From contig CAMWFQ010000016.1 in the NCBI GenBank assembly GCA_947173495.1, positions 53,463 through 117,462 on the forward strand: 64,000 nucleotides of DNA, read 5' to 3'. Source of the stretch: an uncultured Lachnospiraceae bacterium. GTDB taxonomy: Bacteria > Bacillota > Clostridia > Lachnospirales > Lachnospiraceae. The notes below the pieces were generated by a model. That model saw only the letters and a program-made list of their open reading frames with translations, was not told the origin of the DNA and searched no databases. The translations under genes were made by a program, and so were the position numbers. Positions 3,701 to 64,000 of this stretch are shown piece after piece (position 1 is the stretch's first letter; each line of letters opens with the position of its first letter).

Positions 3701-6320
3701 CGTATATGTTGGTCATAATCAATTGAAGACCGGCTCCAACTCTGCCCTGAAGCTGATTGCGACTCAGTATCATGCGGAGTCCGGCGCCTTTGCGTCAGAG
3801 GTGGCGTCCCTGAAGGTGGGACGTAATGAGATCACGATTCCGGCGATTCAGAGCCTGGCCTTTGAGGGGGGAGGCGCCCTTTATGTTCAGTATACCGGAA
3901 ACAATGACAACGACAGATATGCAGTGAGGGTAAACGGAGGAGTCAGAGAACCGGTGCTGAATCTGTATGGAGTTTCCGATGCGCAGGAAAGGACGCAGCT
4001 TGTCACTTCTTATGTAAAAGAGCTGGAAGAGCATGTGGCGTCTCAGAAGAGCGTTCATGAGCAGGTGCATGAAGCGGCCGGAGAGAACAGCAGTGTAAAC
4101 CGCGCCTATGATAAGCAGAATTGTATTCTGGGTGCAACAGACATTGTACTGGATCAGATGATGCTCTCTGTATCAGGGGAGCAAATCCTCGCAGGGCTGG
4201 GAAGCGGATCTTCTGAGGAGCGTGCAGAAAGACTGGATCAGTCGCTGTATGCCATGGACGAAATGCTGGCGCTGTTTTATCAGCACAAAGGTCTGACTCG
4301 AGAGGAGTCGGCGCCGGCCACAGACCGTATGCCGGTTCAGCATTTGAATATCCGTTATATGCGGATGTTTGCGGGAGCCTTTATGTATGCTGCCGGAAAT
4401 CATATCGGAATCGAGTGGGGCTCTGTTCCGGGGCTGGCGTCTTCTTCCCCAGTGATCTCGGATGAAAGGGGCAGATATCAGAGCGGAAGATATTTCGGCT
4501 GGGGAATTGCCCATGAGATCGGACATAATATCAACCAGGGAGCTTATGCCATTGCGGAGGTGACCAATAATTATTTTGCCCTTCTTGCGGGCGTAAAAGA
4601 CAGCAATGATTCTGTCCGTTTCAAATATGAGAACGTGTATAAGAAGGTGACGTCGGGGACCGTAGGCAGTGCGTCCAACGTCTTTACACAGCTGGCCATG
4701 TACTGGCAGCTTCACCTTGCTTATGACAGGGACTATAATTATAAAACCTATGACAGTCACAGTGAACAGCTTGCAAATCTGTTCTATGCGAGGGTGGACT
4801 CTTACAGCAGAAATACGGCGCTTGCACCGGGAGGACTCCGGCTGGGAGGCGGAAGCGATCAGAATATCATGAGACTGGCCTGCGCCGCTGCCGAAAAGGA
4901 TCTGACAGAGTTTTTCATGCGCTGGGGCATGGTCCCGGATGCAGATACCATACGATATGCAGGGCAGTTCCCGAAGGAGGAAAGAGCGCTGTATTATCTG
5001 ACAGACGATGCCAGAGTATATGAAATGGAGTATGGCGTATCCGGTTCTGTGCGGGAGAGCGATGTGATCAGTGCTGCCAGCAGTGTGGCGTTAAGTGAAA
5101 AGGTCTCTAATGAAGTGGTGCTTTCTATTCAGAATACACTGAGCAACCAGGAAGTAATTCTTGGTTATGAGATCGCCCGGTATCATTACGAAGATGGGAA
5201 ACCTGTGCGTCAGGTAATTGGATTTACACCGGAAAGCTCATATGTAGACCATATTTATACAGTGAATAACCGGGTGATCTCTTATGAAGTTACGGCGGTG
5301 GATCAATTTGGATACAGATCCAATCCGGTCCGCATCGGAGATGTAAGGATCAGTCATGACGGCAGTTATGATAAATCCCTCTGGACTGTGAAAACAAATA
5401 TGACTTCAGAAGCAGACAGTGCCGGTACAGGCCAGGAAGAGGATCCCTGTGACCCTGGAACGGAATCTGCCATTTACAGCATTGTGGATCATGACTATGG
5501 AAATACTTATGAGGGGCAGAATGCAAACGGCGAGGCGGCAATTCTGATTCATCTGAACCAGGTACTGGGTGTGTGCGGGCTGAAATATACGCTGAAATCG
5601 GGAACACCTGTGGGAGATTATGAGATACAGGTGAGTGTGGATGGCAAAGAATGGACCAGTGTCAGGACAGGAAGATTTGACGATAAAAAAGGAAGCCAGA
5701 CTGTTTATTTTGAAAATGCTGCAGGGGATCCCTGGATCTGTACGTATGACGCTGCGTATGTAAAATTAAAAGCGGTTGGTCAAAGCAGCATGCGCATATC
5801 AGAGATCGACCTGCTGGGACCTTCGGGCGACAGCATATCCTTCGGGGTGAAAGAGAACAGCACGGAAGGCGCTGTGGGAATCCTGAAAGAGGATTATGTA
5901 TATGAGCATAAAGAAGGAGGAGAGCGGAAGGTAATCCCGGCAGGTTCTCTGATCTTTACTGGCAGCTATAAGGGAAATCCTGCTTACAATGTGGTAGTAC
6001 TCTACGATGAGGAAGGCGCTGTTGTGGGAGGTGTGGACGAAGAAGGCATACTTAAGGCGGAGCAGATTATTCTGGCAAAAACACCGGAAAACGGGTTGCT
6101 GGGAGAAGTGAGCGATGGAATCTGGATCTACTGGATCACGCCTGCAGAGGGGCAGAAGCCGGACATCGGCAAAAAGGTGAGAGCGCAGCTCTACCGTGTG
6201 GATAATGCATTGACCAATGAAGGACAAAGGCTTGTAAGCGACGCGCTGCCTCTTCCGATACCGGATGAGCTTCAGGAAATCACGCTTAAAAGCGGTGTGG
6301 AAACACAGGACGGCCAGTAG
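735..6320 (+). CDS. Secreted M60-family (enhancin/mucinase-type) peptidase with dockerin, FN3 and discoidin-like modules
   Basis: This is a 1861-residue secreted zinc metallopeptidase of the M60 type; characterised relatives cleave mucin-like O-glycoproteins. A signal peptide ends around residue 23 (VQA-AE). A Ser/Thr/Pro-rich linker fills roughly 30-165. A type I-like dockerin spans about 285-345, with two calcium loops of the DxNxDGxxxxxD form (D291/N293/D295/D302 and D327/N329/D331/D338). Two fibronectin III-like domains lie at about 526-620 and 622-711, a carbohydrate-binding-like beta-sandwich at about 720-890, and the M60 domain at about 955-1420. The zinc motif is HEIGH (H1260, E1261, H1264) with E1275 as the likely third ligand. 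A second discoidin-like module lies near 1544-1695. There is no C-terminal sortase or membrane anchor, so the dockerin may hold it at the cell through the next gene. The start follows AAGGAG with good spacing. Exact domain borders are estimates. Confidence 0.9.
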   Translation: MKRMMAGLLALGLIMTCIFPVQAAETLPGADRQNARNEMQTDPDSEDQRKQETQTGNGKERTVTDSDAATPSPVGTFSPVPEKSASPSPVPTAISPSPAASAGVNKTPASGASAETDKTPGSGAAEGSPQIEGTPVPSGMPGAAGAEGENLPQSSPTASVAPENASSVNTEDDIQYASSDPAGRIEVLLRNAIPVEKVTATVRVEMAGEGKSGSGTVILEKNAQIHPVHFDQLLPGSYHLTVEAPGFLPYKQDIEVDGNVVTAEIHTGFVDMEGFSCDQDKARPGVLLIGDVNGDGIIDGKDKDAITEAISRGENGVLAGNPDDATDLNRDGRTDLVDLQYYVNSRASQYDHVDTSSSLAESIAPDAIAVNIDQDITVTGGSLEDLLLWNHNTVKLEKSQPITEEDPAAVSFNLQSREQAENGEYIPVEQIEISMGAAAIESGFLEIETDESSQPQKIEIVDGKITSRSGARAAGSEGGNNQLTVYLGDQIAVKKVTLVITRAKDGGSLAEISRVEFLNDMENRIPEPEMNIPGNLEVTPADKSFYLEWDQQWNITGYEVEISHGGETEIVRAASNSLQVKSFRGDKLKNKEVYEVRVRSVNGNWTSGFSGKKEAVPEVSKRPDAPDNVRAVGGYQKVRMSWKKMKDTDTYNVYYKEAGESAFRQVTGITQNQYEITGLKDQTRYEVYVTGVNEIGEGNPSIHSEARTITLKPAQMPEYKLINESNGKGKVSAHITGAWHFRGEMTASPLDTEPKSALGTVDKDFASSYQILDWDDGAVYVSPDKGLLFELDDYYKMSYIAFAETEDIASYGAVSVYYYDQEHPEGTYAENPTVVQRSDANGRKYYLIKLSKAITANKIRLGFSRGYNLRNMVIAEVNFYHYDSLEDDILGLYADDLHTSLKEGVTEETINELQQRLDTRDTKSGEYHPEKDVLQRELDNAKGLLASGFQDIIQINPKIRAGKDSHLGFGGLNSWQPLGITAYEGEQIVVYVGHNQLKTGSNSALKLIATQYHAESGAFASEVASLKVGRNEITIPAIQSLAFEGGGALYVQYTGNNDNDRYAVRVNGGVREPVLNLYGVSDAQERTQLVTSYVKELEEHVASQKSVHEQVHEAAGENSSVNRAYDKQNCILGATDIVLDQMMLSVSGEQILAGLGSGSSEERAERLDQSLYAMDEMLALFYQHKGLTREESAPATDRMPVQHLNIRYMRMFAGAFMYAAGNHIGIEWGSVPGLASSSPVISDERGRYQSGRYFGWGIAHEIGHNINQGAYAIAEVTNNYFALLAGVKDSNDSVRFKYENVYKKVTSGTVGSASNVFTQLAMYWQLHLAYDRDYNYKTYDSHSEQLANLFYARVDSYSRNTALAPGGLRLGGGSDQNIMRLACAAAEKDLTEFFMRWGMVPDADTIRYAGQFPKEERALYYLTDDARVYEMEYGVSGSVRESDVISAASSVALSEKVSNEVVLSIQNTLSNQEVILGYEIARYHYEDGKPVRQVIGFTPESSYVDHIYTVNNRVISYEVTAVDQFGYRSNPVRIGDVRISHDGSYDKSLWTVKTNMTSEADSAGTGQEEDPCDPGTESAIYSIVDHDYGNTYEGQNANGEAAILIHLNQVLGVCGLKYTLKSGTPVGDYEIQVSVDGKEWTSVRTGRFDDKKGSQTVYFENAAGDPWICTYDAAYVKLKAVGQSSMRISEIDLLGPSGDSISFGVKENSTEGAVGILKEDYVYEHKEGGERKVIPAGSLIFTGSYKGNPAYNVVVLYDEEGAVVGGVDEEGILKAEQIILAKTPENGLLGEVSDGIWIYWITPAEGQKPDIGKKVRAQLYRVDNALTNEGQRLVSDALPLPIPDELQEITLKSGVETQDGQ

Positions 6321-19120: not shown

Positions 19121-19149
19121 ACCCAAATCAGCATGCACCCGAAGATACC

Positions 19150-19188
19150 GGAACGATTTTAAGACGCGGAGCGTCTGAAAACCGTTCC
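19150..19188 (+). other. Intergenic two-part hairpin between pepA and cutC
   Basis: GGAACG (19150-19155) pairs with CGTTCC (19183-19188) around an inner stem AGACGC-GGA-GCGTCT (19162-19176), with A/T-rich internal loops. No T-tract follows, so it looks more like an mRNA-processing or stabilising structure than a terminator. Confidence 0.5.
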
Positions 19189-19239
19189 AGCTGCAGGGCA
19201 TGGAGGATATATGCGGAACTGGAATAGGAGCATTATACG

Positions 19240-19986
19240 ATGAAGAATTTTATTTTGGAAGCATGTGTGGATTCGGTGGAATCTGCACTGGCAGCCGCCA
19301 GAGGCGGCGCGACCAGGCTGGAACTGTGCGGAAATCTGATTATTGGAGGAACCACGCCCAGCCCCTGCCTGTTTCAGCAGATACGCAGGCACACGGATAT
19401 TCCCATTCATGTATTGATCAGACCGCGTTTTGGAGACTTCTGCTATACCGATGAGGAGTTTGCCATTATTAAGGGAGAAGTGGAAACCTTCCGCAAGCTG
19501 GGAGCGCAGGGAGCGGTGATCGGTATTCTTACGCCGGAGGGAGAACTGGATGTGGAAAGGCTGGGAATTCTGTGCAGGCAGGCGGAAGGAATGTCTCTCA
19601 CACTGCACCGAGCCTTTGATGTGTGCAGGGATCCCTACCGGGCGTTGGAGCAGGCTGTTGAGCTGGGATTCCGAACCATACTCACCTCAGGACAGCAAAA
19701 CAGTGCGCGGAAAGGGGCGGAGCTTCTCAAAGAGCTGGTGGCTTTGGGAGGAGAGAGGATTACGATTCAGGCGGGAAGCGGCATAAACGCAGAAGCCATT
19801 AAAGAACTGTATCCTCTGACGGGAGCCAGAGCTTATCATATGTCGGGAAAGATGGTTCTGGAGAGTCCTATGCGCTATCGGAAAGAAGGCGTGAGTATGG
19901 GGATCGGCAGTGTCAGTGAATATGAAATATGGCGTACAGAGGAAGAAGCGATCCGTAAAGCGTGTGTGGTTCTGGAAGGACTTTAG
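19240..19986 (+). CDS. cutC: CutC family protein (copper homeostasis)
   Basis: The 248-residue protein is a full-length CutC TIM-barrel: the opening LEACVDSVESALAAARGGA, RLELCGNL, the HVLIRPRFGDFCY strand and the LHRAFDV and LTSGQ motifs are all present. CutC has been linked to copper tolerance, but its biochemical role is not settled. The start follows a GGAGC-type ribosome binding site. The next gene begins 3 bases after the stop, so the two are likely co-transcribed, which fits a thiol or metal-stress theme for the pair. Confidence 0.93.
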   Translation: MKNFILEACVDSVESALAAARGGATRLELCGNLIIGGTTPSPCLFQQIRRHTDIPIHVLIRPRFGDFCYTDEEFAIIKGEVETFRKLGAQGAVIGILTPEGELDVERLGILCRQAEGMSLTLHRAFDVCRDPYRALEQAVELGFRTILTSGQQNSARKGAELLKELVALGGERITIQAGSGINAEAIKELYPLTGARAYHMSGKMVLESPMRYRKEGVSMGIGSVSEYEIWRTEEEAIRKACVVLEGL

Positions 19987-50975: not shown

Positions 50976-53465
50976 ATGGGAAGAATTATGAAATTTGAAT
51001 TAGACAGAGACGGCTATATTATGAAATATCTGGTATCCGGAAGGCGTGACCTGGAATTTCATGATGAGAGCCGTGATAACAATCAGCTCCGGTATGAAAA
51101 GTATTTAAGGAGCCTTGTAGCAACGTATGATACAGCTGCCGCAGCGGGGAATCCCGTTGCGGCAGATATTATAAGTGAGGAAGCCGGAAGCGAAGCGTTT
51201 TCCCGGATAAAGGTGGGCGCAGAAAGCCCTCTGGGAATGCCCTGGCGCTATTATGTATCCGGCGGAAATATTTTTGTAGACGATTCCGACTTTTATCTGG
51301 AGCCGCGTATTGTGGAAATGCTGGCTGCCACAAAGCTGCTTGCCGATGAAGATATGGAAGTATCTGTCAGGCTCTGGAGTTACGCGGCAGTGGAGGTATG
51401 GCTGAACGGGGAAAAGGCAGCCTGTATCGAAAAGCCGGTCTATAAGCCCATCAGCTGTGTAAAGGCTCTCTTCCGGCTGAAAAAGGGAGAGAATCTGGTC
51501 TATGTAAAGCTCAGGACCCTTGGCGTGAGGGATACCAGTATATCCTTTGCCATTCAGATCATGGAGAGAAGGAATCAGATTTTTTCTGCAATTCCCGACG
51601 AGGAGGGAGCCATGCCCTATATCAGGGCCGAGGAGCTTTTGGACAGCGGGATGTTGTCAGAAGGGCGTCTTTTCTTCCGGGAAGAGCTCCCTGCCGGGAG
51701 CCACATCAGGTATTTTACAGGAAACAGGGACTTTCGTGCCAGGGACAGGGGCGTCATTACGGAGAATGTAGAGGGACGGAAGGAAATTTTACTGAAAGAG
51801 TATGCCTTTTTCAGTGTTGCGGTTCCTGTGAAGAGAGAGGTGCTTGAGAGAAAATTTGAGAGAATCGAAATGCGGACGCCCTGCTTTTTACATACGCCTG
51901 AAGGAAAAAATCAGGAAGCCGTGCTGGAGAAGATCGGGGAAGTGGCTTCTCTGATCCGGGGAGAAGAGGATGGATTTGCCCTTTATCCCATGCTGGCACG
52001 GTATGCTCTGGGACAGCGGAAAGAGGAGGATATTGAAGAAATACGGGTTACCTTGAAGCAGATCAGCCGGAGAATGGATTGTGCGGATTTTATGACCTGC
52101 GGGCTGATCCGGTTGATGAGACTGTATGATCTGGGAGAGGAACTGAAAGAAGAAATCAGGAAGACCATGCTGGATTTCCGCTACTGGATGGATGAGGATG
52201 GATTTGATGGTATGTGCTTCTGGAGCGAGAACCATACCCTGATGTTTTATCAGACAGCCTATTTCTTCGGGGAGGAATATCCGGACGAGATTTTCAGACG
52301 CTCTGGCAAAACAGGAAGACAGCTCAGAGACGACGCCCGGAAGCGTATTCTGGAATGGCTCCGGGATGTGCTGACAGACGGCTTTGAGGAATTTAACAGC
52401 GGCGTTTATACAGCCATTACCTTTTCGGTGCTTTTGAACCTGGTGGATTTCGCGGAAGAAGAGATTGCAGAGAAGGCATCGGAGGCGGCGGATCTGATTC
52501 TGCGCACAATAGCCCGGCACTGCTTTAAAAACGTGATTATCTCTCCTCAGGGGCGGATTTACCGGAACGTGCTTTATCCCCATCTGCAGGGACTGCAGGC
52601 TCTTTTGCAATACATCGTTCCCGAAGCGCCTTATGTATACAATGAGTGGCTCTCAGCCTTTGCCGGAACCAGATATGAGATACCGGGGGATCTGCAGGAG
52701 ATCATGAGGCGGAAAGGGTGGCAGTCCTATCAGAGCTCCAATGCGGTGGTCGATCTGTACCGGACGGAAGATTATATGCTCACCAGTGTGGAATCTCCCA
52801 GGCGGGATGGAATCCGGCGAGTGTGGGAGCATCGCATGGAGGAGGCGGAGCGGGAGAGCTTTCATTATGTGAAATCCCTGAACGAGTGCTTCCATGGAAC
52901 CATGCAGTTTGAACCGGGTGTGTTTGGTTATCAGCAGCATATGTGGTATGCGGCGCTTGATCAGGACCTGGCGGTGTTTTCCAATCATCCGGGGCAGACC
53001 TGCGAGGCGAGGGGAGAATCCCGGCCCGGTTACTGGTACGGAAACGGAATCATGCCGGCGCTCAGGCAGAAGGACAATATGCTGGGGATCATTTATCAGA
53101 TACCGGATACCCACCCCATTCACTTTATCCATCTGTTCTGGAATAAGGCGGGCTTTGATGAAGAAATGCAGGAGGGCTCCTGGCTTTTCGGAAGAAAGGG
53201 AAAGGGCTGTATCGGGATCTGGTGCAGCAGTGTGCTGACGGATCATGACGATATGCTTTTTAACTGCGAAAAAAGAGCTTATGGAGACAGGATCGCCCTT
53301 GTATGCGTCTGCAGCGGGGAAGAGGAGGGAGAGAGTTTTTCTTCTTTCAAAAAGAGATGCGGGGAGATGCCGGTTTCCTTTGATGAAAAGGAAAGTACAC
53401 TGACCGTTCCGGAATTTTCACTTCATTTTGAGGCGGCTTTTAATCCCACTCAGTTTGTGGAATAA
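50976..53465 (+). CDS. Unrecognised 829-residue protein, candidate carbohydrate-active enzyme
   Basis: No family is recognised. The protein is cytoplasmic (no signal peptide). Its N-terminal third looks like beta-sandwich domains: VEVWLNGEKAA and KKGENLVYVKLRT resemble the sugar-binding jelly-roll of GH2-type proteins. The middle, about 350-600, is helix-rich like an (alpha/alpha) toroid with a striking FWSENHTLMFYQTAYFFGEEYP segment. The last 230 residues return to beta-strands. That order resembles polysaccharide lyases or glycoside hydrolases of toroid type. It begins one base after the permease gene, with AAGGG 5 bases before ATG 50976; ATG 50988 with GGAAG is possible. Its neighbours (sugar importer, GH38 mannosidase) argue for glycan breakdown. 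Confidence 0.65.
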   Translation: MGRIMKFELDRDGYIMKYLVSGRRDLEFHDESRDNNQLRYEKYLRSLVATYDTAAAAGNPVAADIISEEAGSEAFSRIKVGAESPLGMPWRYYVSGGNIFVDDSDFYLEPRIVEMLAATKLLADEDMEVSVRLWSYAAVEVWLNGEKAACIEKPVYKPISCVKALFRLKKGENLVYVKLRTLGVRDTSISFAIQIMERRNQIFSAIPDEEGAMPYIRAEELLDSGMLSEGRLFFREELPAGSHIRYFTGNRDFRARDRGVITENVEGRKEILLKEYAFFSVAVPVKREVLERKFERIEMRTPCFLHTPEGKNQEAVLEKIGEVASLIRGEEDGFALYPMLARYALGQRKEEDIEEIRVTLKQISRRMDCADFMTCGLIRLMRLYDLGEELKEEIRKTMLDFRYWMDEDGFDGMCFWSENHTLMFYQTAYFFGEEYPDEIFRRSGKTGRQLRDDARKRILEWLRDVLTDGFEEFNSGVYTAITFSVLLNLVDFAEEEIAEKASEAADLILRTIARHCFKNVIISPQGRIYRNVLYPHLQGLQALLQYIVPEAPYVYNEWLSAFAGTRYEIPGDLQEIMRRKGWQSYQSSNAVVDLYRTEDYMLTSVESPRRDGIRRVWEHRMEEAERESFHYVKSLNECFHGTMQFEPGVFGYQQHMWYAALDQDLAVFSNHPGQTCEARGESRPGYWYGNGIMPALRQKDNMLGIIYQIPDTHPIHFIHLFWNKAGFDEEMQEGSWLFGRKGKGCIGIWCSSVLTDHDDMLFNCEKRAYGDRIALVCVCSGEEEGESFSSFKKRCGEMPVSFDEKESTLTVPEFSLHFEAAFNPTQFVE

Positions 53466-53481
53466 GCCTGAATCATATTCT

Positions 53482-53516
53482 CACAGAATGCGCAAACGCC
53501 GCATTCCTGAGCTGTG
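53482..53516 (+). other. Intergenic hairpin before the cupin gene
   Basis: GAATGCG (53486-53492) pairs with CGCATTC (53500-53506), extended by CACAG with CTGTG (53512-53516) across a small bulge. No T-tract follows, so it is probably an mRNA 3' structure of the preceding gene. Confidence 0.5.
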
Positions 53517-53581
53517 AATCATAACGAATAATTCTTCCGGCACAGACAATGTGCGGAGATTGTATGGAGAAAGGAGTCAAA

Positions 53582-53902
53582 ATGTTTGTATTGAATAAAG
53601 AATGCGGCGTCACCAACTGCGAGCCGGGCGTTACCAGAAAGGTAATGGGATATACGGACGGGGTAATGATGTGCGAGATCAGCTTCGAGACAGGCGCAAA
53701 AGGAAACGTACACACCCATCCCCACACCCAGGTCACCTATGTGGCGGAGGGAAAATTTGAATTTACCGTAGATGGAGAGACAAAAGTGGTCTCAAAGGGG
53801 GACTGCGTCCTCATGCCGCCGGAGGCCGTCCACGGAACAGTATGCCTGGAGGCCGGGAAGCTGGTGGACGTGTTTACGCCGAAGAGAGATGATTTTATAT
53901 AG
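53582..53902 (+). CDS. Small single-domain cupin protein
   Basis: The 106-residue protein is a conserved-barrel cupin. Motif 1 is GNVHTHPHTQVTYVAEGKFEF, with histidines as metal ligands, and motif 2 is GDCVLMPPEAVHG. Such proteins serve as sugar isomerase-like enzymes, mutarotase-like proteins or effector-binding proteins; none can be chosen. AAAGGAG with 5-base spacing supports ATG 53582. It lies between the unknown 829-residue protein and the tandem structured repeats. Confidence 0.88.
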   Translation: MFVLNKECGVTNCEPGVTRKVMGYTDGVMMCEISFETGAKGNVHTHPHTQVTYVAEGKFEFTVDGETKVVSKGDCVLMPPEAVHGTVCLEAGKLVDVFTPKRDDFI

Positions 53903-53903
53903 A

Positions 53904-54230
53904 AGCAGCGGTACTGGAATCAGCAGCGAAGCAGAAGTGCCCGGCTCAATTTACGGATGCGGAAGCAGCCGGAAATATGAGCCAGAGAAAGGGGCACTGA
54001 TGCGAAGCAGCGGTACTGGAATCAGCAGCGAATCAGAGGGACGCGGCACAATTTCCAGTCACGAAAGTGAATGGGAATTCGTGCCAGACAAAGGCGTCCC
54101 GAAGAGCAGCTGCGGTACTGGAATCAGCAGCGAATCAGAGGGACGCGGCACAATTTCCAGTCACGAAAGTGAATGGGAATTTGTGCCAGACAAAGGCGTC
54201 CCGAAGAGCAGCTGCGGTACTGGAATAGGA
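53904..54230 (+). repeat. 102-base tandem array of GNRA-capped hairpins
   Basis: GGTACTGGAAT recurs at 53910, 54012, 54114 and 54216, exactly 102 bases apart: three units and the start of a fourth. Units 2 and 3 are almost identical; unit 1 is diverged. Each unit folds the same way (53936-53998, 54038-54100, 54140-54202). Unit 1 has AGTGCCC/GGGCACT and GGCTC/GAGCC; units 2-3 have GGGACGC/GCGTCCC and GGCAC/GTGCC, so both strands of each helix changed together. All have an unpaired 3' AGASAAAG and a GNRA loop (GGAA or GAAA). A 116-codon frame (ATG 53889 to TAG 54239) also crosses the array, but it has no good ribosome binding site. Confidence 0.85.
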
Positions 54231-54238
54231 GGTTTATA

Positions 54239-54472
54239 GTGGAAAATTATATTAATAATACGATAGCGCCCAGAATCCGTGGAGACGGCGGCTGGGTAGA
54301 ATTTGTCTCCTGTGAAAACGGGGAGCTTACCCTGATCTTTCGGGGAGAGTGTTCAAAATGTATCATTCTGGACAGGTGTCTTGACTGGATCCGTCAGGAG
54401 ATAAAGCGGGATTTAAACGAGGATGTCACCATAATACCGAAGCGTGTCAAGCCTTTTTTCTGGGATAATTAA
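54239..54472 (+). CDS. NifU C-terminal-like iron-sulfur protein
   Basis: The 77-residue protein is a stand-alone NifU C-terminal-like domain: a beta-strand region (GGWVEFVSCENGELTLIF), then the cluster-binding CxxC in GECSKC (C38, C41) and an amphipathic helix. Such domains carry or transfer Fe-S clusters. The GTG start at 54239 follows AGGAGG, and that ribosome binding site lies in the last partial unit of the tandem array, so the array reaches right up to the gene. Its presence among glycan genes is unexpected. It is close to its normal minimal length. Confidence 0.8.
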   Translation: MENYINNTIAPRIRGDGGWVEFVSCENGELTLIFRGECSKCIILDRCLDWIRQEIKRDLNEDVTIIPKRVKPFFWDN

Positions 54473-54534
54473 CAGGTGGGATTAATTTGTGCCGACGCCC
54501 CAATTTGCAGGTGTTGGCAGCATGGAGGATTATT

Positions 54535-57500
54535 ATGGCTTTTGTTGAAGTTGTCAGAAGAAGTATGCGTCCCGAGGAGTGGACCGATCTGCGCTATGCA
54601 TGGATTAAGCGCAGCCTGATCAGTGAGAAATATGAGATTACAGGGCTTGAGATCAGAGATGCCCTGCAGACCGGGGAAAATGAATATACGTTCCTGTCGG
54701 ATTATCGACCCCTTAAGAAGGAGGACCTATATTTTACGCCCGACGGAACTGTTTTTATCAGAGGCAAAGGAACGGTACCGGAGGAATTTGCCGGAAAAGA
54801 GGTATGGTTTACTCTGCACACGGCGGCGGAGATGATCGTGAAGATCAATGGAAAATTTGCCGGGGGCATTGACCCAAACAGGGACAGGCTCCTCTTAAAT
54901 CCCTGGCTGGACGGAAAAAGAGATTTTACCATAGAGATCGAAGGATATAACCGCTCCAAGCCGGACGACGAGCGGAATCCGGATGCTATGGACTCCAGAG
55001 GCTGCCGGCAGATCTTTGATGGCGCCTACGTGGCGGTGCTGAATCAGGAACTTGTGGCATTATATTATGATCTGACATTGTTTCTGGATATTGCAAAATC
55101 TCATCACTTTGATGAAGATTACAGAGAATTCTTAAACCGGGAGTTGAACCAGGCTCTGAATCATATTGATTTTGATACCATGGAAGGGGTGGGCGAGGCC
55201 CTTGCCTATATAGAAGAGCACATTTATCGGAATCAGGATTTCCGTACCAGTGGAAATGTGGCTCTGGTAGGCCACTCTCATCTGGATATTGCATATTACT
55301 GGAGGCGGATGCATGTGGTGCAGAAGAACGCCCGCACCATCCTGATTCAGATGCGGCTTATGGACAAATATCCTGAATTCAAATATGCTCACACCCAGCC
55401 TTATACCTATGAGCTTTTATCACAGTACTATCCGGAACTGTTCGAGGAACTGAAGGAGAAGATCAAAGAAGGACGCTTTGAGCCCGTGGGGGCCATGTAT
55501 GTGGAGCCGGACTGTAATGTACCTGCGGCGGAAAGCCTGATCCGTCAGTGCCTGTACGGGCAGCATTATTACCGGAAGACCTTTGGAATCACGGTGGACA
55601 ATGCCTGGCTGCCGGACGTGTTTGGCAACAGCTGGATTCTTCCTCAGATTCTGAAAAAATCGGGTGTGGATTATTTTGTATCCAACAAGATGTCTACCTG
55701 GAACGACACCAACCGCTTCCCGCACAATAATTTCCTCTGGAAGGGAATTGATGGAAGCGAGGTTTATGCCTGTGTGCCGCCCACCCACTTTATCACCTGG
55801 AACATGCCCAGTCAGATTCAGGAAAACTGGGACGCTTATCAGGACAAGGAGACAGGGGGACAGACACTCTCCATGTTTGGTTACGGAGATGGGGGCAGCG
55901 GCGTGACGGAGGAGATGCTGGAGCTGATGGAACGGTTTGACAAGCTCAGTATCATGCCAAAAACAGAGCATATGAGAGCAGACGAGTTTCTGCACCGGAA
56001 TCTGAAGGATAATGATCAGCTGGAGGTCTGGGATGGAGAGCTTTATCTGGAAATGCACAGAGGAACCTTTACCACCAAATCCAACCTGAAGTCCTTTAAC
56101 AGAAGGCTGGAATACAAACTGCGCGCGGCGGAAATGCTGTCTCTTCTGCGAATGAGGGCGGGAGCGCCTTATCCCAAAGAAGAGCTGGAGGCATGCTACA
56201 AAAAGCTTCTGCTGAATCAGTTCCATGATATCCTTCCGGGAAGCCATATCAATCCGGTGTATCAGGATGCCATAAAGGATTATGAGGAGCTGGAGAAGCG
56301 TCTGGATGCGCTGATTGGAGAGGAAGGGGAGCGGTATTTCAACACGCTGAACAGAAAGCGCAGCGAGATTACCTTTCTTCCATGTGAAAAGGGGCCTGTG
56401 GAGAGAAAAGGTGTGAAAGGATACTTTGTTCTTCCGGATATGGAAGCATTTTCCGGCAAAAATCTGTCCGAGCTGACGAAAGCGTATCCCTCGACGGAAG
56501 CAGCAGACCAGAATACAGACACCTCCTGGCTGTCGGCAGAGGGACTTACTGCAGAGACGCTCTATTATCAGATCCGCTTCGGTGCGGATGGCTCTATAGA
56601 GAGTCTGCTGGATAAAGAAAACCGGCGTGAATGGACAGATGGCGGCTTTAATAAGCTTCATCTGTATCAGGATACACCGGGAATGTATGATGCCTGGGAT
56701 ATTTTGCCCAACTATAAGGATGTGGAGTATGACTTTACCATAGAGGAGGGGCTCCATCTTACCTATGTGGACAGAGTGGCAGCAGAATTTACTGCCGTAT
56801 TGAAGACGCCCGGGGATAAGAGTACATGGAAGATGATCATTCGTCTGTTTAAGGATTCTCCGCAGATCGAAGTGGAAAATATTGTGGACTGGGATGAGAA
56901 GCATAAGATGGTGAAGGCAGAATTCTCCTGCAACGTACTCTCCCGTGAACTCTGGTGCGACACCAGCGCAGGCTACATCAAAAGAGAGACCCACAGGAAC
57001 ACCAGCTGGCAGAAAGCCCGGTTTGAGGTCTGCTACCATAAGTGGTGTGATTTTTCAGAAAAGAGCGGCGGCATTGCGATCATTAACGAAGGGAAATACG
57101 GACTGGGAGTGGAGGAAAAGGGCATGTCCTTAAGCCTGATCCGTTCCAACATCCGTCCCGATATCATGTCTGATATCGGCCATCACGATTTCTGCTATGT
57201 GATCCTTCCTCACAGGAAGGATGCTGTGGAGGCAGAGATCAACCGCAAGGCTCTGGAATACAATGTGCCTCTGGTGAGGACAGAACTTTCGGGAATGCCG
57301 TTTGACTTTGGCCTTCTTTACCTGCAGGCAGCCAAGCTTTCCGAGGATGGACGGCATGTGGTATTCCGCTTAAGCGAGCAGGACGGCATGAGGGGAGAAG
57401 TAAAGCTTCCGTTCAAAGGATATCTGATGAACATGCTGGAGGATATGGAGGGAGAGACAGATACCATTTCCTATAAGCCGTTTGAGATATTGACAGTGGG

Positions 57501-61500: not shown

Positions 61501-63647
61501 GAGGAACCATCAGCGGAAATAAAACCAATACTATGCAGGACTGGGGCGGCGGCGGTATATTTGTGGGCAGCGGGAGCCAGCTAAAGGTCCTGAATGCGGT
61601 GGTCTCGGACAATGAAGCGGCCGGTTATGGCGGTGGTGTATGTGGATGCCCTACAGGGCAGATTGGAATTTTGACAATCAGCGGAACTGCTATTTATAAT
61701 AACAGCGCCAAGCGGGAGAACAATCCGCAGAATCAGCTGAAGCCAAATACGGAGGGAGGAAACGTAGGCGAATACGGGAAAGACTTCTTCAGTGCGGCAA
61801 AACAGGAAACGCCGGAAAGCGTTGTATTTGGCACTATGCTTGGCGGCGGTGATGCGGACTGGATTGGCAAGGTGGATGGAAAAGATGTGGTGATCAGGAG
61901 AGGCAGTCAGAAAACGGGAAGAGTATTTGGTCTGGACGCTTTCCCCACAAGTGCAGATATTGAGAAAGCGGTCGGCGCCTCAGCGGTTACGATTTCGGGC
62001 AATCATTCCAATACCAATGGTGCCGGCATCATGAGCAACGGTCTTCTGATCATGGGAGAGAGCGCCAGCAGCAACAGTTGGTCATTGCCGGCTGAAAAGC
62101 TGTATAAAAATGTGAGCGGCAGTACGGTTCAGCAAAATGGCGGCGAGTTTGAATTTTATCTGCTCAGTAAAAAACCTGTCATCAGCACGAAAGGCGAGAT
62201 CAGTTTCGAGGACAACAGCACATTGACGGATAATCTGATCTCGAAAGCCCAGAATGATAACAAGGGCAGAATTTTGTTTGAGATAGAGAATGGAACAGCA
62301 GGTAAGCATACTTATTATGTAGCGGAGAAAAAAGGTACTGACACAGATGTCACGTATGATAGACGGATATTTAAGGTTGAAGTAACGCTGGAAAAGAAAA
62401 CTGTTATATCAGGGAGTGGAGCTTCAGGAGAGATTCTTGCGGTCAGGGAAACGATAACAAGTGTTGTTTCTGAAGATGGAAGCGATACGAAAATTACAGA
62501 AATCACGTTCAGTAACACAACCAAAGCCACACCCAGACCGACACCAACGCCAACAGATGATCCGCCGGGAGAAGTTCAGCCTCCTTCAGAAACACCCGAT
62601 GTTCCTGTGGTGACACCGACACCGGGAGCGGCGGCAACTCCTTCTGCAGGGAATACAATCACACCCGGGGCAACCGTGACACCCAGAGTAACACCAGCAG
62701 TCACGGTAACACCCAGAGTTACGCCGGGGACAGCGACGACGCCCAGAGTGACGGCAACACCCAGAATTACACCTGGAGTAACCGCGACGCCCAGAGTAAC
62801 ACCAACGGTCACGGCGACACCCAGAGTTACGCCAGGGGCGACAGTGACTCCCGCATCAACAAGTACTCCTGCGGCGACCCCTGTTTCGACAGCAACCCCT
62901 ACAGCGATACCCACAGAGCCGCCACGGAGAGTAAGGCCGACAGCAAGTCCTACAGCGTCTCCCACAGGCACCCCGATAGCAACAGCTACAGCGGCGCCCA
63001 CAGCGACCCCAGTGGAAACGCCGGCGGCAACAGCTACAGCGACTCCGGCGGCTACAGCGACTCCTGCAGCGACAGCAACCCCTGCAGCAACTGCAACAGC
63101 GGTACCCACGGCAACCCCGGCAGCTACCCCGACGGCAACAGCTACGCCTGTGCCTACAGCAACCCCAGCGGCAACCCCTACTGCAGTACCCACGGCAACT
63201 CCTGTAGCGACGCCCACAGCCAGCCCTTCGGCGTCTCCCACAGCAACGCCGGCACCGGATCCCAACGATCCGGACAGTCCGGATTTGCTTACAATTGAGG
63301 AGGATGGGGTACCTCAAACCTATGTGCGGGTATGGGATCCGGAAGGGGAAGACTGGATTTACGTTCCGGATGAGGATGTACCCCGTGCGCTGCCTGATCC
63401 GAATGAAGAGGGAAGCCCTGACAGAATTACGATCCTTGATGATGAAGGCGTGCCGTTGACATATGTAAAAGTTGCGGATCCTGATGGAGAAGGGTTTATG
63501 TATATTCCTGATGATGAAGTTCCACTGGCATCCCCGGATACAGGCGATACTTCGCTGCTGTTTTTGTGGGCAGGTATGTGCTTTGCGTCTGTGGAAGGGC
63601 TGATCGCGCTTCGTCCACATAAGAGGCGAAGAGAAGAAGAGCAGTAA
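58542..63647 (+). CDS. Wall-anchored surface protein with HxHTxxC modules, beta-helix repeats and pilin-like domain
   Basis: The 1701-residue protein has a signal peptide (cut near VFAT, about residue 28). HxH/Cys modules follow ([24 protein letters not shown]; one more near 367, [10 protein letters not shown]) that look metal-binding. A Ser/Thr/Pro-rich, very acidic linker covers about 130-360. Right-handed beta-helix repeats (about 645-1055) recur as GGGIY and [12 protein letters not shown] turns with NNTA/GNTS. A FctA/Spy0128-like pilin domain (about 1187-1328) is followed by Thr-Pro repeats (about 1329-1571), then two DGVPxTYVxVxDP units and the sorting signal SPDTGD (about 1664), a hydrophobic helix and KRRREEEQ. 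It is probably attached to peptidoglycan by a sortase and acts as an adhesin; the ligand is unknown. GGAGG precedes the ATG. Confidence 0.88.
62650..63255 (+). repeat. Thr-Pro coding repeat in the surface protein
   Basis: Codons for TPRVTP and then TPxATATP-like units recur for about 200 residues, first with CCCAGAGT repeats at roughly 33-36 base spacing, then as ACN-GCN-CCN triplets. It encodes an extended wall-spanning stalk and is expected to vary in length between strains. Confidence 0.8.

Positions 63648-63938: not shown

Positions 63939-64000
<62 letters not shown>

Follow-up and report, generated by a model that had tools for sequence, protein, structure and literature searches.

Overall, we found that the tandem array at 53921-54225 of the window (the whole 64,000-nucleotide stretch of DNA that was analyzed) is a member of a dispersed family of repeats of about 100 bases, often arranged in tandem. 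The units are present in tens of copies in the genome that carries the window, lie in sense directly before Shine-Dalgarno sites, covary in their helices and show a strand bias in their base pairs. Given the sense Shine-Dalgarno placement and the G-U bias, a role in mRNA is the most likely one, and with moderate confidence we propose that the repeats, as predicted RNA hairpins, act there in setting downstream expression. Two covariance models, R1 built from 14 units and R2 from 150, were used for the searches; P1 and P2 denote helices of the predicted unit, and z compares the fold with dinucleotide shuffles. The features of the window are as follows.

53549..53902, + strand: upstream gene, cupin protein (Pfam PF07883, E 1.1e-14)
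53903..53920, + strand: partial unit, the 3′ arm of P1 plus the tail (AAGCAGCGGTACTGGAAT), from the sequence; matches the tail of full units
53921..54021, + strand: unit 1 (R1 109.4 bits, E 1.3e-25; R2 91.3 bits; fold z -5.3)
54023..54123, + strand: unit 2 (R1 110.4 bits, E 7.5e-26)
54125..54225, + strand: unit 3 (R1 111.5 bits, E 3.8e-26; fold z -7.0)
54140-54146 and 54196-54202, + strand: predicted P2 arms of unit 3
54227..54232, + strand: Shine-Dalgarno site AGGAGG of the NifU-like gene (sequence; placement test on 75 arrays)
54239..54472, + strand: downstream gene, NifU-like domain protein with a GTG start (Pfam PF01106, E 1.2e-13)
19129..19224, + strand: second array of the family in the window, one unit (R1 42.9 bits, E 3.1e-8; R2 65.4 bits, E 3.1e-12)

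The original prediction described three units at a 102-base period between the cupin and NifU-like genes, and this was confirmed by the sequence, the Pfam matches and Tandem Repeats Finder (53901-54226, period 102, 3.2 copies, 85% matches, no indels). We set the unit borders by the phase of related copies, which leaves a partial unit directly 3′ of the cupin stop codon (53900-53902). Identity is 99% between units 2 and 3 and about 70% between either of them and unit 1. Both of the helix differences that had been described between unit 1 and the other two are present; among the 31 pairs of the model, 19 are unchanged between units 1 and 2, 9 differ on both sides and still pair, and 3 are broken in one unit. 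The unpaired 3′ AGASAAAG bulge and the common linker were likewise found in the window units, in which the tail motif CGGAAC reads CGGTAC. However, the repeat does not supply the ribosome-binding site of the NifU-like gene, as had been suggested. Its AGGAGG begins one base past unit 3 and lies outside the repeat: internal units run straight into the next unit, and spacers of other species that have no repeat carry a Shine-Dalgarno site. The single unit at 19129-19224 is followed by AGGAG and then by the ATG, at 19240, of a CutC-like gene (CutC model E 2e-65, under the model's cut-off).

A blastn search with one unit returned 15 matches in the own genome, including those of the window, and R1 returned 53. 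With R2, 56 matches were obtained, of which 54 had E values of at most 2.1e-8 and the next 0.005. These 54 strong units form 26 arrays of 1 to 5 units each; two of the arrays reach a contig end (of contigs 18 and 3) and may be a single array split by the assembly. Units measure 93 to 107 bases, except for one of 162, and a unit on contig 28 shares 94-95% identity with units 2 and 3 of the window. The unit orders ABABA and ABAB, in one array each (L103 and L115), point to duplication of two-unit blocks; arrays would lengthen through exchange or slippage, either of whole units or of such blocks.

Placement was examined on 125 units in 75 arrays from the own genome and relatives (130 matches in 71 loci, less 5 weak or partial ones), all found by model or DNA score and not by a Shine-Dalgarno pattern. 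An array passed when a Shine-Dalgarno core lay within 40 bases after its last unit and led on to a start codon with an open frame of 50 codons or more. In sense, 65 of the 75 arrays passed (23 of 26 in the own genome and 42 of 49 in relatives), compared with 8.8% of 20,000 positions drawn at random from these loci, or 2.4% with a 12-base limit. In 55 of the 65 passing arrays, the core starts 1-4 bases past the unit. Three of the failures (L020, L095, L253) reach contig ends or a further partial unit, two (L105, L106) have AGGAGG in place with a short or displaced frame, and in five (L089, L098, L245, L261, L099) the site is weaker or unusual. Of the 26 own-genome arrays, 25 are followed by a sense frame (48 to 909 codons) that starts 9-44 bases after the last unit, the remaining one being cut by a contig end, and 18 of the 24 own arrays with upstream sequence in view start within 80 bases of a same-strand stop codon. 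The common rule is a position directly 5′ of a ribosome-binding site rather than one between genes. The little bias of orientation or position expected of BOX-like or MITE repeats was not what we observed, with 65 of 75 arrays at sense Shine-Dalgarno sites.

The predicted unit would form one closed hairpin, in which P1, of up to 10 pairs, leads through a 3x3 GNA/GNA internal loop with G-A appositions to P2, a 3′ bulge of about 8 bases and an apical arm; the conserved tail CGGAACU and about 4 further bases would follow P1 and abut the Shine-Dalgarno site. For units 1 and 3 of the window, none of 200 shuffles folded as well in either case. When 7 of the first 14 aligned units were folded singly, z ranged from -2.7 to -7.0, and the shuffles that folded as well numbered 0 of 200 for five units and 1 and 5 of 200 for the other two. 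A covariance-model search, which had been proposed with the original prediction, found further homologues with covarying helices. A set of 98 chosen loci gave 155 matches, the best 150 of which make up alignment A4. Under the 31-pair structure, 90.8% of its cells are paired versus 63.5% after shuffling, two-sided changes affect 1180 cells versus 331, and the observed covariation score of 0.681, which none of 500 shuffles reached, compares with 0.183 after shuffling and at most 0.066 for slid partners. Two-sided change occurs in 30 of the 31 pairs, a number reached by 6 of 500 shuffles.

Because A4 was fitted to R1 and is biased towards the structure, P1 was also tested alignment-free, counting from both ends. 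Dropping rows short of full length (123 of 142 retained) left 104 distinct arm pairs; column 6 of P1 pairs in 95% of them versus 44% when permuted (57% at most in 1000 permutations), and column 7 in 88% versus 42%. The helices thus covary more than phylogeny or an alignment artefact would explain, in the manner of structured RNAs in general, and the earlier proposal of selection on a folded RNA or single-stranded DNA is supported by both the 150 aligned units and the alignment-free test. Individual units of the 150 form a median of 90% of the pairs and 77% at worst. In a set of 87 distinct units, in which no two reach 80% identity and the mean pairwise identity is 0.57, the G-A apposition of the 3x3 loop that separates P1 from P2 occurs in 61 and the A-G apposition in 71. 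GNRA loops, described as retained, do occur in the window units as GGAA and GAAA, but the apical loop is variable and GNRA, found in 14 of the 87, is not a family trait. In unit pairs of A4 at 75-95% identity, broken pairs (731) and compensated pairs (726) are equally common, which counts against a simple picture.

Across the 87 distinct units, G-U appears 104 times on the sense strand and A-C 30 times, for which independent columns would give 278 and 245. This excess of G-U over A-C fits selection on an RNA copy of the sense strand and, together with the sense placement before Shine-Dalgarno sites, favours RNA over DNA. The tail CGGAACU is 83-100% conserved at each position, both in the 75 terminal units and in the 50 internal ones (47 of them distinct), figures obtained with models that include the tail, so that tail-less copies could be missed. 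Since internal units keep the tail even though another unit follows, it belongs to the unit. The arrays are presumably co-transcribed with the neighboring genes, and a transcribed array would form a folded spacer that separates the upstream stop codon, or the promoter, from the next start codon. We favor the possibility that this spacer protects the downstream message at its 5′ end or delimits that end, perhaps by way of a putative factor that recognizes the tail. The element, itself non-autonomous, may have spread by copying into spacers immediately ahead of Shine-Dalgarno sites. Direct masking or freeing of the Shine-Dalgarno site was unsupported, as its predicted access was the same with real and shuffled units (0.59 versus 0.58, p 0.27; 61 of 75 arrays scored).

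Further observations count against the reading as an mRNA element. First, the downstream genes have no common function: in the own genome they encode a glutamate synthase small subunit, an acetate/butyrate-kinase-like protein, ANTAR-domain and penicillinase-repressor-like regulators, a SpoVA-type protein, solute-binding proteins, glycosidases, a protein kinase, a PP2C phosphatase, a deaminase, NifU-like and CutC-like proteins and others. Second, the same gene pairs occur in sister species without the array, so that no copy looks essential. Units were found in 9 of 37 same-genus genomes and 7 of 299 genomes sampled across the family, the own genome included in both, and in 1 of 295 in an order-wide sample, namely the own genome; the family and order counts are lower bounds, as 13 candidates per genome were scored under stricter filters. 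The own genome has the most units found. An exact 20-mer of tail plus site occurs in at least 117 stretches of named genomes, and the titles among the 80 matches listed are Lachnospiraceae, Acetatifactor, Lachnoclostridium, [Clostridium] symbiosum, Clostridia or bacteria. R1 found 75 units in these 80 loci, which had been preselected by that exact pattern.

Two spacers, which we take to be crt-hbd and pgk-tpiA, allowed a comparison of orthologous positions. At crt-hbd (30 loci compared), the own genome has a 292-base spacer with an array, and four array-bearing relatives without an array there have spacers of 15 (G223), 31 (G204), 36 (G232) and 54 bases (G241); a fifth (G242) holds an apparently decayed copy, as judged by eye. 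At pgk-tpiA, G223 carries one unit and G232 two, and the spacer measures 16-50 bases in 15 of 30 loci. With the G223 unit as reference, 4 pairs are compensated, 3 one-sided and 2 broken in one G232 unit; in the other, nearer the start codon, 4 are compensated, 1 is one-sided and 8 are broken, which counts against the mRNA reading. At both positions, spacers of other species that have no repeat carry a Shine-Dalgarno site. Looking by eye for a target-site duplication at two loci, we found the spacers too diverged to fix the junctions. In many same-genus genomes without the array (L302-L312), the crt-hbd spacer contains a different hairpin 5′ of the Shine-Dalgarno site (AACACTGCC...GGCGGTG, by eye).

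A second reading, that of a selfish element, is tentative in our view and comes close behind the role in mRNA. The repeat would then be a non-autonomous mobile element that prefers Shine-Dalgarno targets, with a hairpin that serves mobilization or makes the insert harmless and with no benefit to host genes. Patchy presence among genomes, empty orthologous spacers, the nearly identical units at unrelated loci in the window and on contig 28, the seemingly decayed copy in G242 and the unrelated downstream genes are all in its favor. However, compensatory changes at orthologous positions and a G-U bias for the transcribed strand are not what it predicts, and the own genome, the richest in units, lacks a Y1 transposase; moreover, casual rather than systematic inspection noticed no mobile gene beside the arrays. 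PF01797 (Y1, RAYT transposase) had no match in the own genome, whose assembly is 97% complete, and was present in 21 of 37 same-genus genomes (7 of 9 with arrays and 14 of 28 others). Mobilization by RAYT, or membership in the REP-REPIN class, was therefore rejected, there being no PF01797 in the own genome and no clear link across the genus. A phage or plasmid origin was also unsupported: blastn of 53890-54240 against phage and plasmid collections and a search of viral contigs with three exact patterns gave no match.

A bolder and more doubtful idea is that of a self-spreading RNA module that homes to ribosome-binding sites. The hairpin and the CGGAACU tail of this non-autonomous repeat would be recognized by a putative factor and copied before Shine-Dalgarno sites. 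Tens of copies per genome, amplified in tandem, could serve unrelated operons, including those of central and butyrate metabolism, as plug-in expression modules.

It is improbable that the hairpin acts at the DNA level, as a recombinase or replication-protein site in single-stranded DNA. Tandem arrays and dispersal are typical of such sites, and covariation alone cannot tell RNA from DNA, but the sense-strand excess of G-U over A-C and the sense-only placement before Shine-Dalgarno sites speak against it. A tandem riboswitch or T-box-like sensor before its regulon, which the structured tandem units 5′ of genes might suggest, is very unlikely; no Rfam match falls on the arrays of the window or of L016-L020, the downstream genes share no regulon theme, a scan of 53400-54600 for intrinsic terminators (a GC-rich hairpin plus a T tract) found none, and Shine-Dalgarno access is that of shuffled units. 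A protein-coding repeat of 34 codons can practically be dismissed: the window array is indeed open in one frame (53889-54239), but unit lengths vary from 93 to 107 bases with one of 162, and 56, 40 and 52 of 119 distinct units are open in the three frames, with no single frame preferred or kept.

The original prediction recognized no known RNA or repeat family, and likewise no Rfam match fell on the arrays searched. At gathering scores, the sole Rfam 15 match in the whole window was a tRNA; the search gave nothing at 53800-54300 up to an E value of 5, and in L016-L020 up to an E value of 1 there were three matches, none on an array unit. A MIR6297 match beside the array of L018 fell under the gathering score and was taken as chance. 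In the literature searched, mostly outside subscription journals, we recognized no description of these repeats. Several known systems are nevertheless similar in part. The MIRU of mycobacteria are tandem units of 50-100 bases between co-oriented genes, with small frames that overlap the flanking genes; the present units are also tandem but keep no frame. REPIN/REP sequences with their RAYT transposase are dispersed non-autonomous hairpin repeats outside genes, and resemble the present family in dispersal and hairpins, whereas the own genome is without a Y1 transposase.

The BOX elements of Streptococcus pneumoniae are small, interspersed repeats of modular build in which the number of middle modules varies; they are predicted to fold when transcribed and can alter the expression of neighboring genes (PMC3049150). 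They are over-represented between convergent genes, with about 61% on the leading strand (PMC3049150); the present arrays are alike in being modular but unlike in being fused in sense to Shine-Dalgarno sites. ERIC and Correia elements lie inside operon transcripts and are able to change mRNA cleavage or stability (PMC3049150); they occur in other hosts, the passage on them in that paper mentions no fusion to ribosome-binding sites, and they are set apart here by description. The TAACTGA direct repeats of marine Beggiatoaceae form short forward arrays directly 5′ of start codons, before genes with no common function (PMC4679880). The placement at start codons is similar, but in that account the units are of seven bases with no predicted RNA structure and a Shine-Dalgarno site is present in only about 10% of the repeat-bearing spacers (PMC4679880), unlike the present 100-base covarying hairpins that end at a Shine-Dalgarno site.

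An array of CsrA targets, with invariant GGA motifs and one of them in the loop, was rejected as an explanation because the apical loop is variable and CGGAAC reads CGGTAC in the window units. Longer extra CsrA paralogs were found in 7 of 9 array-bearing versus 6 of 28 other genomes (Fisher p 0.004, uncorrected, with grouping by hand). CsrA, though it may still play a part, was set aside as a partner and this association given little weight, since 8 of the 9 regions fetched around the longer paralogs hold what we take to be a flagellin-like ORF. In L332, L333, L334, L335, L337, L338 and L339 the paralog adjoins this presumed flagellin-like ORF, and several of these loci have on the other side an ORF starting MSTTQPI that is presumably integrase-like.

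Known dispersed repeats such as BOX pay little regard to gene direction and often lie at gene ends. A family that is locked in sense 5′ of Shine-Dalgarno sites, with strong compensatory evolution and a variable unit number, would be a new way to place one RNA module before many genes, and prompts one to ask by what process ribosome-binding sites could be targeted. In Lachnospiraceae, units lie inside core-metabolism operons, presumably crt-hbd, ptb-buk, gltB-gltD and pgk-tpiA, and unit number could therefore be a simple dial for expression differences between species.

Several other elements were noted along the way. A long inverted repeat (GGCGCGAGTTATAGTGAACGAC...), MITE-like by eye, adjoins the array in the PP2C-kinase spacer (L018, about 6020-6240, minus strand), and L016 contains an FMN riboswitch match at 1301-1451 (83.6 bits). 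In the window, Tandem Repeats Finder reported coding-type tandem repeats of 18-84 bases, several of them overlapping, at 62694-63211, and the tRNA match, the sole Rfam match at gathering scores, lies at 63939-64000 and is cut by the window end. A different and shorter hairpin (TTTGTGCYGACGCCC...) occurs at 54483-54530 of the window and near 4173 of L105 (minus strand), among the window and 27 own-genome loci covered. In both places it ends just 5′ of a Shine-Dalgarno site, ATGGAGG, and it may represent a second family docked at ribosome-binding sites.
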